Shown here: positions 3,257 to 12,351 of the stretch, piece by piece
Numbering within the stretch: the first letter of the stretch is position 1
Layout: every line of letters begins with the position of its first letter
Origin: Siphonodentalium dalli
Lineage: Eukaryota > Mollusca > Scaphopoda > Gadilida > Siphonodentaliidae
DNA: 64,000 nucleotides
NCBI GenBank assembly: GCA_032622095.1
Contig: CP136061.1
Location: 190,842,369-190,906,368 of the forward strand
Direction of reading: 5' to 3'
The notes under the pieces: generated by a model
What the model saw: only the letters and a program-made list of their open reading frames with translations
Database searches by the model: none
What the model was told of the DNA's origin: nothing
Program-made: the position numbers and the translations under genes

Positions 3257-4586
3257 CCCCTGTCACACTCAGGCTGGCGCTTGCATTGCGCTGAAAAGGT
3301 ACCAACATATGAGTAACACGCAGGAGGAGCGCGGGAAACTGTCCAAAATTGTCAAACTTTAAAAACAAAATATGCTCATATTGCGTTCCTACTTTGTCAA
3401 GTCTCACGCTCTTGGTGCGTCCAAGTCGCTGTCATTGTGTTGCTAGTACGTTCTCAATAAGTTTGCACAACGTTCTCTGCGCGGGCGCGGAGAGTATAGC
3501 TAGCGCCTCCTGCGTTCTCCAGGCATAGTCAGTTTTTAGGTTGTGGGGGAAAATACCTAACAATCCGCAATATATTAGCTGTCCGTTTAAACCACTGTCA
3601 CACTCCGCTGCGATCAGGCCGGCGCTTGCCTTGCGCTGAAAAATAATCAAAGCGCCAAGCGAAGCGCACTAAGGTATCCAATAACCTATTGGTGACGCAG
3701 TTGATACTGGCTAGGACGGGAGAGGGTTCCCGTAATCGCACCAGAGCGCCAGAGCGCCGCACTTGTTTTGTGCATGCACAAAAACAAGCGCAGAGGTTCG
3801 GCGTTCTGACCAGGACGCAGTGCTGTCGCCGTGGCAACGAAAAACGAGCGGCGTGAGCGTCCCGTTGACGTAGCAAGGATGCATACAACCTACTCGTGAT
3901 CGCAGCAAGAAATCATCTCTTTCGTCTCTCTCCCGACCTGATTGCGCTCTTTTTGCGCTACCACGTGTTATTGTGGACTGGTTCCCGATCATAGAACGTC
4001 CACACGATATTGCCACTGCAAATATGGCCCTCGCTATATGTCCAAGCGTGACAAATGGCGTTCTTACAACGCTTTCAGCAGGTTTACACTACGATCCCAC
4101 TTCTCACACACACTATCGGAGTTTGAATATAATATGTAAATTTAAACTGGAATCAGATGTACATGTATTTCGTCGCGAATGTGGAACATAATATAGGACA
4201 TGGAATACGCAATAAGAACAGTGCACGTGAAGTGGCACCTAAAGGAATCCAATGTATTCCGTATATACATGTGCTACAGTCATAAACAACATGGGAATGC
4301 TGCTGTCACCCCCCATATGTCATGTAATTCAAAAATAAGAAAGGCATATATTAAGCCGATCTATTTAGCCCTGACGAAATTCCGACTTATCACTATTATA
4401 CTAGTGGAAAATTTAATCGAAACAGATGCTCAATTTAAATTATGACTACATATCCGGAACATATAAAACATATAAGTTTGACAATTTCTGACACTTTTCT
4501 GCGCTTCTCCTGTGTGTTACTCGTATTTTGATACTATTTCAACTCAAAGCAAGCGCCAGCGTGATCGCAGCTGAGTGTGACAGGGG
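3257..4586. mobile_element. TIR element(s) of the CCTGTCACACTC family
   Basis: The terminal sequence CCCCTGTCACACTC followed by a GGCGCTTGCATTGCGCTG phrase occurs at 3257. It recurs at 3592 with an extra GCTGCGATCAGG insert, and in inverted orientation ending at about 4586. The 3592-4586 unit therefore has matching inverted ends, about 1 kb apart. Subterminal sequence (3960-4100) recurs inverted at about 4587-4900. No transposase frame is present, so these would be non-autonomous. A further inverted end lies at about 12351. Confidence 0.65.
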
Positions 4587-4665
4587 TGTGAGCAGATCGC
4601 ATTTCAAAGTGGGACCGTACTGTAAACCTGCTGTAAACGCCGGAAGAACGCCATTTATAACGCTT

Positions 4666-5664
4666 GGGCGTATAGCGAGTGCCACAGTCGCAGTGGCAGC
4701 ACAGCGTGGACGTTCTATGAGCGGGAACCAGTCTATATAACGCCTCATGACAGCGCAGAAAGATCGCGATAAGTTTGTGAGATAATCGCAAAGGGCGTAA
4801 TAATGACGGGAAAGACACGTAGTGAGTGCTGATTAAGCTTACTGTAGTAGCAAAGGACAAGATTGATTTCTTGCTGCGACCACGAGTAGCTAATATGCGC
4901 TGTTGCTACGTCCACACTACGCTCACGTCGCTCGCTTTGCGCTTTGCATTGCGTTGCCACGGCGAGAGTACTACGGAGCGGTCCTACTAAAACCCGACCG
5001 CACCCGACCGCACCGACCGGACCGCCCCAGGGGTCCGAGCGAGATGGGGTTTGCACTATCGTGTACAATGGACCCGAATGTACTAAAGTTCCAATCCCCA
5101 TGTCGATAGCTCGAGCGGACACGGCACTGTTAACCCCTGACTTGCGGCCGTTTCCGCCAGGTACGGGAAATCCAAAAAGGCGCCGACCGCACCTCCCCTG
5201 ACTGCCTGACCACGGAAATGGACATTATATCATGAAGGAAATACGGCTATTCATTCATGCGCGATCGGACAAGTCGAAAGCTGCAGCGGAAGTGAATAAA
5301 TTAACCCATACGCTGCTGCCGAATTCGCTATAAATGTACGCAAAAACGCCGCAATTAACACCCGCCGACCGGACCGCCCCAGGGGTCCGAGCGAGATGGG
5401 GTTTGCACTATCGTGTAGAATGGACCCGAATGTACCAGTGTTCCAATCTCCAAGTCGATAGCTCGAGCGGACACGGCACTGTTAACCCCTGACTTGCGGC
5501 CGTTTCCGTCAGGTACGGGAAATCCAAAAAGGCGCCGACCGCACCTCCCCTGACTGCCTGACCACGGAAATGGACATGTTATTGTCACATATTAATGAGA
5601 TGATACGACGACCCCGAGAGTATAGAAATAAAAGAAGTAATATCTGACTAAACACAAACTACAT
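4666..5664 (+). repeat. left ~1 kb direct repeat abutting the LINE
   Basis: This 999-bp block is repeated in the same orientation at 8808-9798. By eye there are about nine substitutions and five small indels, roughly 98-99% identity. Its left edge continues smoothly into the TIR-family sequence, because the inverted relative at about 3960-4095 spans the same junction. Its right edge is exactly where LINE endonuclease coding begins. Inside it is a shorter tandem duplication with a 352-bp period (phrases starting at 5014 and 5366). It is GC-richer than its surroundings and has no recognised product. Confidence 0.9.
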
Positions 5665-5723
5665 ACGTCCCTTACTATGACGGCGCGACTCCTTCGCTGC
5701 TCGATCACATTGTCATCTCCGAC

Positions 5724-7787
5724 ATGATGGTTAATTGTGTATCTAAAACTCATGTCACAGAAGATGCAGCAACTAATAGTTCAAACCACAGACCAGTGTT
5801 CTGTTGTATAGATGTAGCTCCTACACTAAAACCACCATCAAATTACACGAGGAAAAAATATCGCTGGAAATGTGAATACATGAAGTCTTATCAAGACAAT
5901 CTAACTTCCCTGTGCAAACCGTTACTGACCAAAGAGATAAACGACAAAAATGACCTTGATTCGTATTATCGCAATTGTGTCGACATTTTAATTGATAGCG
6001 CAGAAAAGACTATCCCTCCAATGTCCTACCACGCACACTTGAAACCATACTGGAATAAACAACTCAGCAGTCTGAGCTCTGATTGCAAGTCAAAATACAA
6101 ATTGTGGTCGCTTGCTGGTCGCCCACGAGTATTTACCTCATCCACGTATGTTCAGTATAAAGACGCTAAAAGGACTTTTAGGAAAGCTCATCGCTCTGCG
6201 TTCAATGCGTACCTATCCGATCAACAAAACAAACTTGAGTGCGACGCTGCCTCCAACCAAACGTCCTTCTGGCGGTCTATCAACCGAAACCGTTCGCATG
6301 TCTCTCAAATCGGATCGGTTATGGAATTCAATGGGTCTCTGACACGTGACGCAGATGAAACACTTTCTGGCTGGTCTGAGTACTTCAGAGAATTGTTCAA
6401 TCCACCACCCCACTCTGAGCCAGAGTTTGAGGACCACGTTACCAGAGAAGTTGTTAGCTGTGTTTCTCTTGCTAAAGATCCCGTGCAACCGAACTGCCCA
6501 CAGTGTCAACCAGTCGAACTCACCGAAATCGTTCTTCATGTGAGGAAACTGAAAAAGAACAAAGCGGGTGGCGCAGATGACTTATTGAATGAACATTTGT
6601 TGCACGCTCCGACTTCCTTCATAGAATGCATCAAAAGACTATATGACGGTATATTCCGCATGGGGTGGATTCCACCAACGATGAAAGAAGGAATAGTCAT
6701 TCCGTTATACAAAGGACCGCCTAAACCACCGACATCTCCTGATAGTTACCGTGCTATAACACTTCTATCGGTCCTATACAAACTATTCGAGTCCATTCTG
6801 TTGAGCCGTCTTCTTCAAAGCCACCAAATGAAACGATTTCCGAATGCACAACAAATGGGTTTTCAGAAAGGTATCAGCTGTTCGATGACGTCATTCATTC
6901 TCACGGAATCTGTATCATATGCCAAAGACAATAACTCCAATTTATATGTTGCCTTCCTTGACTCCAAGAAAGCCTTTGATAAAGTATGGCACACTGGCCT
7001 CCTGTACAAATTCATTCAGCTCGGATTTTCGCCACACTTTGTCAGTTTGTTGGAGAACATCCATTCGGATGTGACTAGCAAAGTACTATATGACGGCCGC
7101 ATGTCGCAAAGTTTCAAAATACTGCAATCTACTCGACAAGGTGGCGTTCTGTCACCTCTCTGCTATCTCGTCTTCATAGACGACCTACTTAACGAACTAG
7201 CAACTTCTCCATACGGACTAAGAATCTGCAATATCCCATGTGGCGCTCCTACTACTGCCGACGACATCGCTCTTCTGTCGCTATCGAAATCCGGTCTAGA
7301 ATCCTTGTTGAACATATGTGTGAAATATAGCAGGCGGTGGCGATTCGAATTCTCCTCCACGAAGAGCAAAATTGTTGTATTCAACGAGAATAAAAACTCA
7401 TATGACCCCTCGGGAAGGATATGGAGGTTGGGCAATCAAACTATTCAGGAAGTTACAGAATGTGCCCATCTTGGTTTAATTCAGGACAAGTTTGCGAAGC
7501 AGGTCAATTCCGCCTCTTCTGTGTCGACAAAAATGAGGAACAACTTTTTCAATATCATGGGTAACAAACTTATGAAATCCACTACACCCATCACCATGAC
7601 AAATGTCCTCAAAACTGTTGTTCTACCGAGAGCTCTCTACGGTGTCGAGGTGGTTCCTTTTTATCAAAGTTCCGCCATCACCATTATGAACAAAGCCGCC
7701 AGAACATGTCTCAAATACGCACAATCCCTCCCAAAACGAGCGTCAACTAGGCTATCGCTAGGTCTTCTTGGATTTCTACCAATTTAA
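5724..7787 (+). CDS. LINE endonuclease (C-end) / reverse transcriptase
   Basis: The 687-codon frame encodes the main part of a non-LTR retrotransposon polyprotein. The start is nominal: coding similarity continues upstream in the same frame to 5665, where the element is truncated. Residues ~20-35 close the endonuclease (NSSNHRP). A linker of about 250 residues follows, then reverse transcriptase: PLYKG, SYRAITLL, motif A FLDSKKAFDKVW near residue 413, motif B RQGGVLSP near 470, and motif C TADD near 510 in place of the more usual YADD/FADD. The catalytic aspartates are present. The frame stops at a TAA, but the matching protein continues in the same frame at 7788, so this is a nonsense codon rather than the natural end. 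Without the endonuclease start the copy is probably dead. Confidence 0.88.
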   Translation: MMVNCVSKTHVTEDAATNSSNHRPVFCCIDVAPTLKPPSNYTRKKYRWKCEYMKSYQDNLTSLCKPLLTKEINDKNDLDSYYRNCVDILIDSAEKTIPPMSYHAHLKPYWNKQLSSLSSDCKSKYKLWSLAGRPRVFTSSTYVQYKDAKRTFRKAHRSAFNAYLSDQQNKLECDAASNQTSFWRSINRNRSHVSQIGSVMEFNGSLTRDADETLSGWSEYFRELFNPPPHSEPEFEDHVTREVVSCVSLAKDPVQPNCPQCQPVELTEIVLHVRKLKKNKAGGADDLLNEHLLHAPTSFIECIKRLYDGIFRMGWIPPTMKEGIVIPLYKGPPKPPTSPDSYRAITLLSVLYKLFESILLSRLLQSHQMKRFPNAQQMGFQKGISCSMTSFILTESVSYAKDNNSNLYVAFLDSKKAFDKVWHTGLLYKFIQLGFSPHFVSLLENIHSDVTSKVLYDGRMSQSFKILQSTRQGGVLSPLCYLVFIDDLLNELATSPYGLRICNIPCGAPTTADDIALLSLSKSGLESLLNICVKYSRRWRFEFSSTKSKIVVFNENKNSYDPSGRIWRLGNQTIQEVTECAHLGLIQDKFAKQVNSASSVSTKMRNNFFNIMGNKLMKSTTPITMTNVLKTVVLPRALYGVEVVPFYQSSAITIMNKAARTCLKYAQSLPKRASTRLSLGLLGFLPI

Positions 7788-8477
7788 TATCAACTGCATA
7801 TCAAAAAACTTTGCTTTATGGGACGTCTTATCCATCTACCGTTCGGCCATCAATTACCATTACGACTGTTTGTCCTGAAAGCACACCTCTACAGACTATA
7901 CAGTCGCTCCAGTGGTTTTGTACAGGAAATGTTCTCCATATTAGCCAAATACGATCTTTTGAACTATTTGAACGACTACCTGGACATTGGGGTCTTCCCA
8001 AAACTGTCAACGTGGATAACTCTTGTGAAGGCAGCTGTCAGGGGAACGTTCATTTCCTCGTGGCAGACCAAAGTTTCGTCCGATCCATCCTTGCGAATTC
8101 TGTGGAAAGTTCACCCTAATCCCCTATCAAACTGGGCAGTCTGGAAACTTCTCCATGGAAACGCTCACATGTTGAAATATCTCAAAAACTTAGTACTGCT
8201 TCTCAACAGGACTACCTATGCCAACAATTTAGTGTGTCATCTCTGCAGCGAAGTGTACTCGAACGAAATCGACCACGCCATGTTCGTATGCTCTTCTCCA
8301 GCCGCACTCATTATTAGAAACTCTTTTTGGGAAGGGATTATCTCTCGTTTCGGCATACCCGAATATTTTCACCTTGCGTCGTTAGCCAGAGATGACCTGG
8401 TAGCAACCCTCCTCGGAAGTTCTCTGGAAACCCTAACAGAACACATATCTCACTGCCTCAAGAAACTAGTACTATAA
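7788..8477 (+). CDS. LINE C-terminal part with zinc knuckle, after a nonsense codon
   Basis: In-frame continuation of the reverse transcriptase polyprotein beyond the TAA at 7785-7787. The second LINE copy reads through the equivalent position, where this copy has the stop and that one has lysine (PVKQQIHLKKL). The segment contains the thumb/connection region and, near its end, a CHLC...H...C knuckle of the kind found at the C-terminus of many LINE proteins and thought to bind nucleic acid. The same arrangement is present in copy 2 (CAAC...H...C) and copy 3 (CKHC...H...C), which supports the reading. The first in-frame methionine after the stop is at 7818, but independent translation is not implied. 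The frame ends in a natural TAA; a 3' untranslated region of about 330 bp follows. Confidence 0.85.
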   Translation, partial: YQLHIKKLCFMGRLIHLPFGHQLPLRLFVLKAHLYRLYSRSSGFVQEMFSILAKYDLLNYLNDYLDIGVFPKLSTWITLVKAAVRGTFISSWQTKVSSDPSLRILWKVHPNPLSNWAVWKLLHGNAHMLKYLKNLVLLLNRTTYANNLVCHLCSEVYSNEIDHAMFVCSSPAALIIRNSFWEGIISRFGIPEYFHLASLARDDLVATLLGSSLETLTEHISHCLKKLVL

Positions 8478-8807
8478 TCTGCGAAGTTCCTGTACGTTCT
8501 CAGCACAATGATAAGGAATGGCGTACAGCAACCCGTGCCTCGTCCATTGTAATTATCTTCTCAACACCCACGCATGTTGTAACGACTAACTGTCATATCT
8601 GTTGGACAAATCAGATTTTCCTGCAACAAAAGCTGTTGTGAACATTCAAATGCATATATGCTTCACTCTCGTGGTTTCCAACACCTCTCCATACTTGTAC
8701 ATAACGGCCCACCACATTGGTCAGGGGAGCCCACTTTAATCCAACTGTATTTATATGTCATGTGTATCGATCTCTCCTATACTTGGAGGTAATAAAGATA
8801 TCTCTCT

Positions 8808-9798
8808 GGGCGTATAGCGAGTGCCACAGTCGCAGTGGCAGCACAGCGTGGACGTTCTATGAGCGGGAACCAGTCTATAACGCCTCATGACAGCGCAGAA
8901 AGATCGCGATAAGTTTGTGAGATAATCGCAAAGGGCGTAATAATGACGGGAAAGACACGTAGTGAGTGTCTGATTAAGCTTACTGTAGTAGCAAAGGACA
9001 AGATTGATTTCTTGCTGCGACCACGAGTAGCTAATATGCGCTGTTGCAACGTCCACACTACGCTCACGTCGCTCGCTTTGCATTGCGTTGCCACGGCGAG
9101 AGTACTACGGAGCGGTCCTACTAAAACCCGACCGCACCCGACCGCACCGACCGGACCGCCCCAGGGGTCCGAGCGAGATGGGGTTTGCACTATCGTGTAC
9201 AATGGACCCGAATGTACTAAAGTTCCAATCCCCAAGTCGATAGCTCGAGCGGACACGGCACTGTTAACCCCTGACTTGCGGCCGTTTCCGCCAGGTACGG
9301 GAAATCCAAAAAGGCGCCGACCGCACCTCCCCTGACTGCCTGACCACGGAAATGGACATTATATCATGAAGGAAATACGGCTATTTATCCATGCGCGATC
9401 GGACAAGTCGCAAGCTGCAGCGGAAGTGAATAAATTAATCCATACGCTGCTGCCGAATTCGCTATAAATGTACGCAAAAACGCGCAATTAACACCCGCCG
9501 ACCGGACCGCCCCCAGGGGTCCGAGCGAGATGGGGTTTGCACTATCGTGTAGAATGGACCCGAATGTACCAGTGTTCCAATCTCCAAGTCGATAGCTCGA
9601 GCGGACACGGCACTGTTAACCCCTGACTTGCGGTCGTTTCCGTCAGGTACGGGAAATCAAAAAAGGCGCCGACCGCACCTCCCCTGACTGCCTGACCACG
9701 GAAATGGACATGTTATTGTCACATATTAATGAGATGATACGACGACCCAGAGAGTATAGAAATAAAAGAAGTAATATCTGACTAAACACAAACTACAT
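8808..9798 (+). repeat. right ~1 kb direct repeat abutting the LINE
   Basis: A 991-bp direct copy of 4666-5664. It begins immediately at the 3' end of the LINE, at a point in the middle of the TIR-family sequence rather than at an element terminus, and ends where ordinary AT-rich DNA starts. The long open frames in both strands of this block occur equally in the left copy and show no known protein. Confidence 0.9.
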
Positions 9799-11095
9799 GT
9801 AAAGTAGAGTTGAATTTTCATCCTCGTTGCGTTTTTGTGATAAAATTACCAAGACTCCAGAAATAGTGGTGCAGTTATACAATTTAAGCATATCTCACAA
9901 AGTTAACGGGATTTTAATATTCAATTTTGGCAAGTGATAGCCATCATTGAGAACTATTAATACTGGTGGTGGTCATTTGTTTTCGCAAAATATACTTGGT
10001 TGCTTCGCATGAAATGTGGTGTAACCATTTATCACATCTCCAACCATAGTAACTCTATCACACAATTCATGGAACATGACTAACTTTTTTCACACAAAAA
10101 AAAAAACAACAAAAAACAACGAGAATGAACCATTCACATGTAGTAGGCCTATCCATGTAGATGTTAGTCAGATGATGGTGGTGTATATAGTTGTGTTTGT
10201 CTAAGTTTGCTAATGTGTCTTTAGAACTTACTTGGCATCTGTGCTTGTATGTATTTTTACTGTGGTCATATATACATGTGTTATATTACCGTTGATTTAT
10301 TCAGATTGTATGTTATCTTGTTTTGTAATTTGATCGGATACATTATCACGAAATAAAATTATTTCATATACTGACTGCGTTTTGTTTTCATCACTGAACA
10401 CATTATTCACATATATATGACACTGTCGTGTACATTCCTGTTAAAATCCAGCCTGAAACTATGAGCAAAGCAATATGAAATGTTACAGACATGATTGAGA
10501 TGCCATCTATAAGATAGCTATCGAATTTGAACGCGTGTTGGTGAGAAACAAGCCACCTACAGTCCTCTTGGGTTTTTAACCATTTCATCACTATAGATGT
10601 ATGCACGTATGCACACTTTAATGTTAAATCTTTCCGAATTTTGTTGAAAAATCACGGTCTCAAGTGGCCATCTTATCTTTTTAATATCTCTGGATATATC
10701 TGAAATGTTGCAAGCGCAATGAATAAAATTAAATACAACATCTATAGGCCGGAGTTATACAGTGTGTGTGTAATTTATTTTAGATGAAAAACATGACTGT
10801 TGGAAGGAAACTTGAAACTGATTCTTTGCCTACATGTATCTATATCTAACAGAATGTTTGTTGGCTGTTAACATTGAAGTTGATTACAACACTTTGAGCC
10901 GGAGTGTCAGTGATATGTTCAAACGCAAACAGAGGCAAATGTATAATGACAAAATCGACAAATTATAATGCACGAGAAGCATGCATGGTGTTTCACAAAC
11001 ATAGAAACACTTATGTTGAGATATGTCAAAGTTAGCACATGGAAGCAGGCTTTATTATGATAAGAACGCATATTTTCTCGCGTGATATCCCACAG
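9799..11095. other. no gene recognised
   Basis: AT-rich unique-looking sequence. There is an A-rich run at about 10096-10125 and an AATAAAATTATT phrase near 10354, but neither is attached to a coding frame. I see no repeats I can match elsewhere in the window. Confidence 0.5.
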
Positions 11096-11589: not shown

Positions 11590-12351
11590 GGGGTTAGCAG
11601 TGCCGTATCCGCTATCGACTTGGGGGTTGGAACTTTGGTATATTCGGGTCCATTCTACACGATAGTGCAAACCCCATCTCGCTCGGACCCCTGGGGGCGG
11701 TCCGGTCGGCGGCGGTTAATATTGGCGTTTTTGCGTACATTCATAGCTAATTCGGCAGCAGCGTATGGGCTAATTTATTCACTTCCGCTGCAGCTAGCGA
11801 CTTGTCCGATCGCCCATGTATGCATATGGGTATTCACTTCATTATATAATGTCCATTTCCGTGGTCATGCAGTCAGGGGAGGTGCGGTCGGCGCCTTTTT
11901 GGATTTCCCGCGCGTACCTGGCGGAAACGGCCGTAAGTCAGGGGTTAACAGTGCCGTGTCCGCTCGAGCAATCGACTTGGGGATTGGAACTTTGGTACAT
12001 TCAGGTCCATTGTACACGATAGTGCAAACCCCATCTCGCTTGGACCACTGGGGGCTGTCCGGTCGTGTCCGGTCGGGTGCGGTCGGGTGCGATCAGGTGC
12101 AGTCGGGTTTTAGTAGGACCCCTACGCCCTGGTCAGAACGCCGAGCCTCTGCGCTTGTTTTGTGCATGCACAAAACAAACGCGGCGCTCTGGCGCCTATG
12201 TGCGATCACGGTGACCCTCTCCCGTCGTAGCCAGTGTTCACTGCGTCACCAATCGGTTCTTGGATACCTTAGTGCGTTTAGGTGGGCGCTGTGATAATTT
12301 TGCAGCGCAATGCAAGCGCCAACCTGATCGCAGCGGAGTGTGACAAGGGCT
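11590..12351 (-). mobile_element. inverted copy of the GC-rich TIR-family sequence
   Basis: Read on the minus strand, this block begins with the family end (CCTTGTCACACTCCGCTGCG, ending at 12351). It then runs through the subterminal segment seen at 3590-3850 and the ~350-bp tandem sub-repeat found within the 4666-5664 block. It lacks the last ~180 bp of that block. With the end at 3257 it brackets a 9.1-kb interval whose outermost sequences are inverted relative to each other. A 224-codon open frame on the plus strand follows the repeat and has no recognised product. Confidence 0.7.

Follow-up and report, generated by a model that had tools for sequence, protein, structure and literature searches.

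A 5'-truncated long interspersed nuclear element (LINE) lies between two direct repeats of about 1 kb in the window, the stretch of 64,000 nucleotides analysed here from Siphonodentalium dalli (assembly GCA_032622095.1, contig CP136061.1, positions 190,842,369 to 190,906,368). The repeats are best read as a true target-site duplication of ~1 kb, produced when an apurinic/apyrimidinic endonuclease (APE)-type LINE inserted by target-primed reverse transcription, and as typical of the family to which this LINE belongs; we assign this reading a probability of about 0.82. The window copy is no exception among its relatives: the long duplication is a habit of the family and a real duplication of the target site.

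The window locus

The locus consists of three adjoining parts:

4665 to 5664, no strand: left copy of the duplicated target, whose first base (T) is common with the LINE tail and whose last three bases (CAT) are common with the LINE
5665 to 8806, plus strand: 5'-truncated LINE, with 5662-5664 ambiguous and a 3' terminus (...AATAAAGATATCTCTC) that matches other copies
8807 to 9798, no strand: right copy of the duplicated target

The original prediction had described a LINE bounded edge-to-edge by ~1 kb direct repeats that were 98-99% identical by eye, and both descriptions were borne out. Self-BLAST of 4665-5664 against 8807-9798 gives 97.9% identity over 1002 columns with gaps counted, and global alignment finds 9 substitutions (0.9%) in 990 aligned bases, with 5 gap events (12 gap bases). 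The alignment stops abruptly at either end, the left edge being exact to 1 base and the right edge to 3 bases. The left edge reads ...AACGCT/TGGGCG... and the 3' junction reads GATATCTCTC/TGGGCG..., where the slash marks the block edge; at the right edge (...AACTACAT/) the left copy is followed by the LINE and the right copy by GTAAAG. The right copy had also been said to begin in mid-element, at the point where the LINE 3' end stops. An inverted relative near 4.0 kb (3929-4102 against 4782-4607, 78.5%) is indeed unbroken across the left edge point, and the 3' edge of the window LINE is the 3' terminus of the family. The endonuclease domain is truncated in the window copy, as had been seen at the block end, and this 5' edge is private to that copy. 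Nearly all copies start at query position 23, which suggested a natural 5' end at 5662; this was ruled out by the flanks, since all 10 of the other copies in the first flank comparison extend upstream of 5662 and the window copy alone stops there.

Host repeats and ancestral edges

The block lies in repetitive host sequence, of which three parts are relevant here:

4300 to 4975, plus strand: dispersed repeat E1
4980 to 5577 and 9114 to 9711, plus strand: satellite part of repeat E2, unit ~352 bp, inverted at 11590-12088
9710 to 10400, plus strand: right part of E2

Other genomic copies of these repeats reveal the state of the two outer edges. With 4300-4990 as query, 39 of 39 other scored places run through the left edge (4664/4665), and 8 of them span 4301-4975 at 88-92%; with 9700-10400 as query, 8 other places cross the right edge (9798/9799) at 94-97%. 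A further 13 weaker matches on the right start at query 114-116 (window ~9813), which lies 15 bases into the right flank and marks the boundary of a sub-unit, not the edge. Elsewhere in the genome the host repeats thus continue across both outer edges, which identifies the block as a duplicated target rather than a unit with its own terminus; a GC-rich unit naturally starting at 8808, which would have contradicted the original prediction, was not found among the 39 scored places. The window block covers the junction of E1 (to ~4975) and E2 (from ~4980), and because this junction is present in both block copies the duplication was made at the window locus. Ancestral edge continuity was read in paralogous repeats at three sites. 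The family copy c025 sits in another LINE-like repeat, and sequence at 38 other places runs across its right block edge; the left block copy at its locus matches only up to that edge. As to E2 itself, its ~352-bp satellite unit lies inside a dispersed element with inverted arms, and many arrays occur genome-wide in both orientations.

Long duplications in other copies of the family

The assembly surveyed comprises 2.23 Gb in 9 contigs, where the 3' end of the family has at least 505 first-look candidates, and many family copies among the matches listed are 97-100% identical. The family 3' terminus is ...AATAAAGATAT(CT)n, with AATAAAGATAT and a few CT bases present in nearly all copies. The 5' ends are scattered over ~6.6 kb, giving a constant 3' end with variable 5' truncation, and the longest copies (c007, c013 and L059) start at about the same base, pointing to an element of ~6.6 kb. 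Three family 3' ends on one strand, at C3:212629399, 212635170 and 212640903, are ~5.7 kb apart and may represent a LINE tandem array.

The flanks of 36 further copies (10+10+11+5), picked from the top of two score lists and not at random, were compared together with those of the window (37 in total). One copy, c031 (L031/L032), was left out because its query break is an internal deletion and its real 5' end is not settled, leaving 36. A flush repeat was defined as a plus-strand match of at least 20 bases (E 0.01) that starts no more than 12 bases from the constant LINE end and, at the other edge, ends no more than 15 bases from the LINE start. Repeats flush at both ends were found in 11 of 36 same-locus flank pairs and in 0 of 1,260 cross-locus pairs, a contrast that chance does not account for. 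To these c017 was added as the twelfth. Its 5' edge is flush and its block is ~1,583 bp long, with the left copy split by ~5.8 kb: the missing first part lies ~5.8 kb further upstream, is 96% identical and starts at the LINE edge. A 3' transduction in c017 was ruled out, as the extra 862 bases correspond to this first part, which recurs upstream. In total, 12 of 36 copies carry repeats of 33 bp to ~2.28 kb (11 of 35 without the window copy, which had been chosen for its repeat). Measured to the LINE start, the left copies have the following lengths in bases:

L093, 33; L053, 76; c007, 79; L092, 218; c011, 374; c025, 727
c015, 834; window, 997; c033, 1025; c035, 1223; c003, 2281

The lengths are broadly distributed without a peak. 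Block divergences range from 0 to 1.9% (4/88 bases in L053), and the ~2.28 kb repeat of c003 has 2 mismatches. Besides its 218-bp flush duplication, L092 (1-3464; C2:147508305-147511768) contains a 2,066-bp tandem duplication of 99.93% identity that takes in 206 bases of the LINE 5' end and is either a recent event or an assembly error.

The 12 blocks have no matches among one another (E 0.01), the repeat sequence being different for each insertion, and blocks as part of the element were ruled out on this ground. None of the 10 copies first compared holds the window block as internal sequence. The search for further copies of the window LINE with long flanking repeats, which the original prediction had called for, thus yielded 11, and its reading as a target-site duplication is supported by the continuous edges, by the unrelated blocks and by these copies. 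As they behave alike, neither an assembly error nor a single, isolated repair event is likely at the window locus.

Structure and proteins of the LINE

Two open frames were identified in the window copy:

5652 to 7787, plus strand: C-terminal remnant of the endonuclease, then the reverse transcriptase, with a stop at 7785-7787
7788 to 8477, plus strand: open frame 3' of the stop, encoding the C-terminal region of the LINE protein, without a match in Pfam

The reverse transcriptase domain (RVT_1, E 3.1e-28) occupies residues 333-567 of a 687-amino-acid open reading frame starting at 5724, and its best relatives in PDB are LINE-1 ORF2 and R2 proteins. In copy L007, the part upstream of the window truncation contains an endonuclease domain (Exo_endo_phos, E 3e-8, above the Pfam cut-off); a PDB search with this piece gave no match at E 0.001. 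Judged from its sequence, which combines a LINE-type reverse transcriptase and an endonuclease of the endonuclease/exonuclease/phosphatase fold with the constant 3' end and variable 5' truncation, the element is an APE-type LINE. The catalytic motif of the reverse transcriptase (window 7255-7275) reads TADD in 4 of 4 distinct readable copies, and an endonuclease motif (endonuclease end in the window, ~5770-5805) reads SNH in 5 of 5 readable copies. The usual forms of these motifs are [FY]ADD and SDH, respectively. The family presumably resembles L2/CR1-like elements.

Mechanism and alternative explanations

The constant 3' end of the LINE abuts the block at its upstream edge, a polarity that fits target-primed reverse transcription and places the first nick there, on the bottom strand, and the second break at a distance of 33-2,281 bases. 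A T flanks the cut on both sides at most left edges. At the 5' join, microhomology ranges from none to 14 bases (3 in the window, 7 in c035, 14 in L093). In the window, the LINE endonuclease would nick the bottom strand between 4664 and 4665, and the tail of the LINE RNA (CUCUCU) would prime at this nick. Synthesis of cDNA would then stop early, at 5662/5665, with the CAT microhomology. The other strand would be broken at a variable and distant place, here ~1 kb downstream, rather than a few bases away, and filling in of the two long 3' overhangs would duplicate everything between the nick and the break. A second break on the other side would lead to a target deletion instead. The simplest course is one in which the second break would not be positioned by the element; we infer this uncoupling from the first nick, as well as the order of the nicks and the fill-in.

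The strongest competitor, which we nevertheless regard as unlikely, is a repair or replication route without two nicks, be it template switching, break-induced replication or, with the cDNA still attached, re-replication at a fork. Such a route is compatible with the broad lengths without a peak, with the microhomology at the 5' joins and with L058, whose flanks resemble inverted copies of one another. The 11 criterion copies, however, show one clean direct duplication per locus (L092 with its one extra tandem event), no copied filler was found at them, and two distant nicks with fill-in require fewer steps. Far less probable is that the block was already in tandem and the LINE landed exactly between its copies, or that an unrelated process later duplicated the locus. 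The host region is rich in repeats, and the extra tandem duplication of L092 includes LINE bases; yet insertion exactly at a boundary would be required at 12 separate loci, as against 0 of 1,260 cross-locus pairs, and neither edge is a natural boundary in the paralogous host repeats.

Slightly less probable again is an assembly artefact, in which haplotypes or repeat contigs were misjoined around a LINE of high copy number, as this one is, the evidence here coming from assembled sequence. Such misjoining is difficult to reconcile with the recurrence of the flush structure on contigs C1, C2, C4, C5 and C7 and with the range of block divergences. Later insertions, moreover, lie inside the LINE or one block copy in c015, c025, c035 and c017, so these structures have a history. 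Finally, that the blocks are terminal repeats of the element (long terminal repeat (LTR)-like or Penelope-like) is almost certainly wrong, for although direct repeats adjoin both ends as terminal repeats would, no two of the 12 blocks match, the window block crosses the E1/E2 junction, and the reverse transcriptase and endonuclease domains are of the APE-type LINE kind.

Copies without a proven duplication and the role of the host

Several points weigh against a target-site duplication typical of the family. The nicks themselves are deduced, and the continuity of the edges was read in paralogous repeats, not in an orthologous or allelic empty site. The flanks compared were unequal, with a left flank of only 580 bases in L059 and 695 in L091. 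A proven duplication is lacking in 24 of 36 copies, of which 4 have probable deletions, 4 are similar only at the 5' edge and 16 show nothing, and the copies sampled from two other LINE families of the same genome also showed no short duplications.

The probable target deletions were identified by comparing both flanks with paralogous sites among the sequences retrieved: 15 bp in c019 (two sites), 32-34 bp in L056 (two sites), 87 bp in c027 (against its own inverted neighbour) and ~116 bp in c029 (short matches only). Similarity at the 5' edge only was found in L052, L094, c023 (in satellite) and c039, and no repeat was found in L054, L055, L057-L062, L091, L095, c005, c009, c013, c021, c037 and c041. 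A long duplication in c013 was considered and rejected: among the matches listed, none apart from its own locus covers the ~360 bases with which its right flank begins. Short exact repeats reach at most 6 bases in 18 copies, compared with up to 9 in 306 cross pairs, and 4 bases (CT tail) in L091 and L095, a level at which duplications of 3-6 bp would escape. A clade-typical short duplication (3-20 bp) in most copies was not found; 12 of 36 have duplications of at least 33 bp and 4 have probable deletions. In L058 (C7:30152213-30157520), where the left and right flanks look like mutual inverted copies, 158 bases are missing from the interior of the LINE.

The other two families are represented in the window at 60.4-62.0 kb (family A) and 19.4-21.3 kb (family B). 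For family A, 8 truncated copies were compared, with 2 kb of left flank and 0.6 kb of right flank each, and no short duplication was found above the level of cross pairs. One of them, L080/L081 (C1:62442198-62445907), has a 182/200-base repeat that is flush with the 3' end but falls short of the matched LINE start by ~150 bases and may be a long duplication of greater age; another, L084, has a probable 5-bp target deletion. In family B, no duplication was found in L088 and L090, and L089 is ambiguous, both flanks being satellite. As neither family showed short duplications in the copies sampled, the cause may be a host-wide trait rather than a property of this element. That the cause is a loss of nucleotide excision repair is not supported by a search that covered two of its genes, since XPA_C (E 3.2e-19) and an XPC-type BHD_1 domain (E 1.9e-7) were both found in the genome.

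We tentatively propose, at somewhat less than even odds, a LINE family without a coupled second-strand cut, which would finish its insertion at any distant break or fork and would be a natural maker of segmental duplications of 0.1-2.3 kb, owing either to its own endonuclease (SNH) or to a host-wide trait.

Comparison with known systems

The R9 element is site-specific. It resembles the present family as a LINE whose second cut lies unusually far off, with a stagger of 126 bp, but the distance in R9 is fixed (PMC6895275) and here it varies from 33 bp to ~2.28 kb. Human L1 in cells deficient in nucleotide excision repair produces target-site duplications of 5 bp to 5.3 kb with a median of 1,495 bp, and deletions also occur; its authors suggest that a distal, unrelated nick completes the insertion (PMC5223499). 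In complemented cells, 3 of 9 duplications exceed 100 bp, and the same paper gives at most 10% for earlier HeLa work. As in the repair-deficient cells, hundreds of bases to several kb are duplicated here beside ordinary first-nick sites; that study, however, used engineered L1 in cultured mutant human cells (PMC5223499), whereas the present copies are fixed in an animal genome. Extremely long duplications have also been noted for 5'-truncated L1 in HeLa (PMC2912911).

Zebrafish ZfL2-2 in chicken DT40 cells gave one long duplication (1,228 bp) among 25 wild-type inserts, as well as target truncations, and 24 of 25 alterations were of 20 bp or less (PMC2666801). Here, duplications of at least 33 bp occur in 12 of 36 copies (Fisher p = 0.009, or 0.0096 if the window copy is excluded), in a comparison across different species and settings. 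Under the specific-cleavage model, duplication lengths peak at 3-5 bp in L2 and CR1, at 10-12 bp in RTE and at ~15 bp in L1 (PMC4245944). The present family shares with those elements its APE type, its truncated 5' ends, joins at microhomology and conservation of the 3' end, but unlike those clades it has no short-length peak, and its behaviour is nearer to the random-cleavage model (PMC4245944). The open-access literature searched, in the portions available, describes no natural LINE family with kilobase duplications; no priority is claimed.

Significance

Cutting of the second strand by LINEs is a long-standing gap, for which the literature, in the portions cited, opposes a random-cleavage model to a clade-specific one. 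The family is present in hundreds of candidate places, includes young copies and offers many duplications that can be measured, with no short peak to be seen, and so makes the cleavage question testable in a natural genome. It is a natural test case for how LINEs complete their insertion, the relatives studied mostly duplicating only a handful of bases. The flanking repeats would also provide every insertion with a clock of its own, in the manner of LTR pairs. For the host, such insertions would constitute a retrotransposon route to the one-step duplication of its segments, up to the scale of gene exons.

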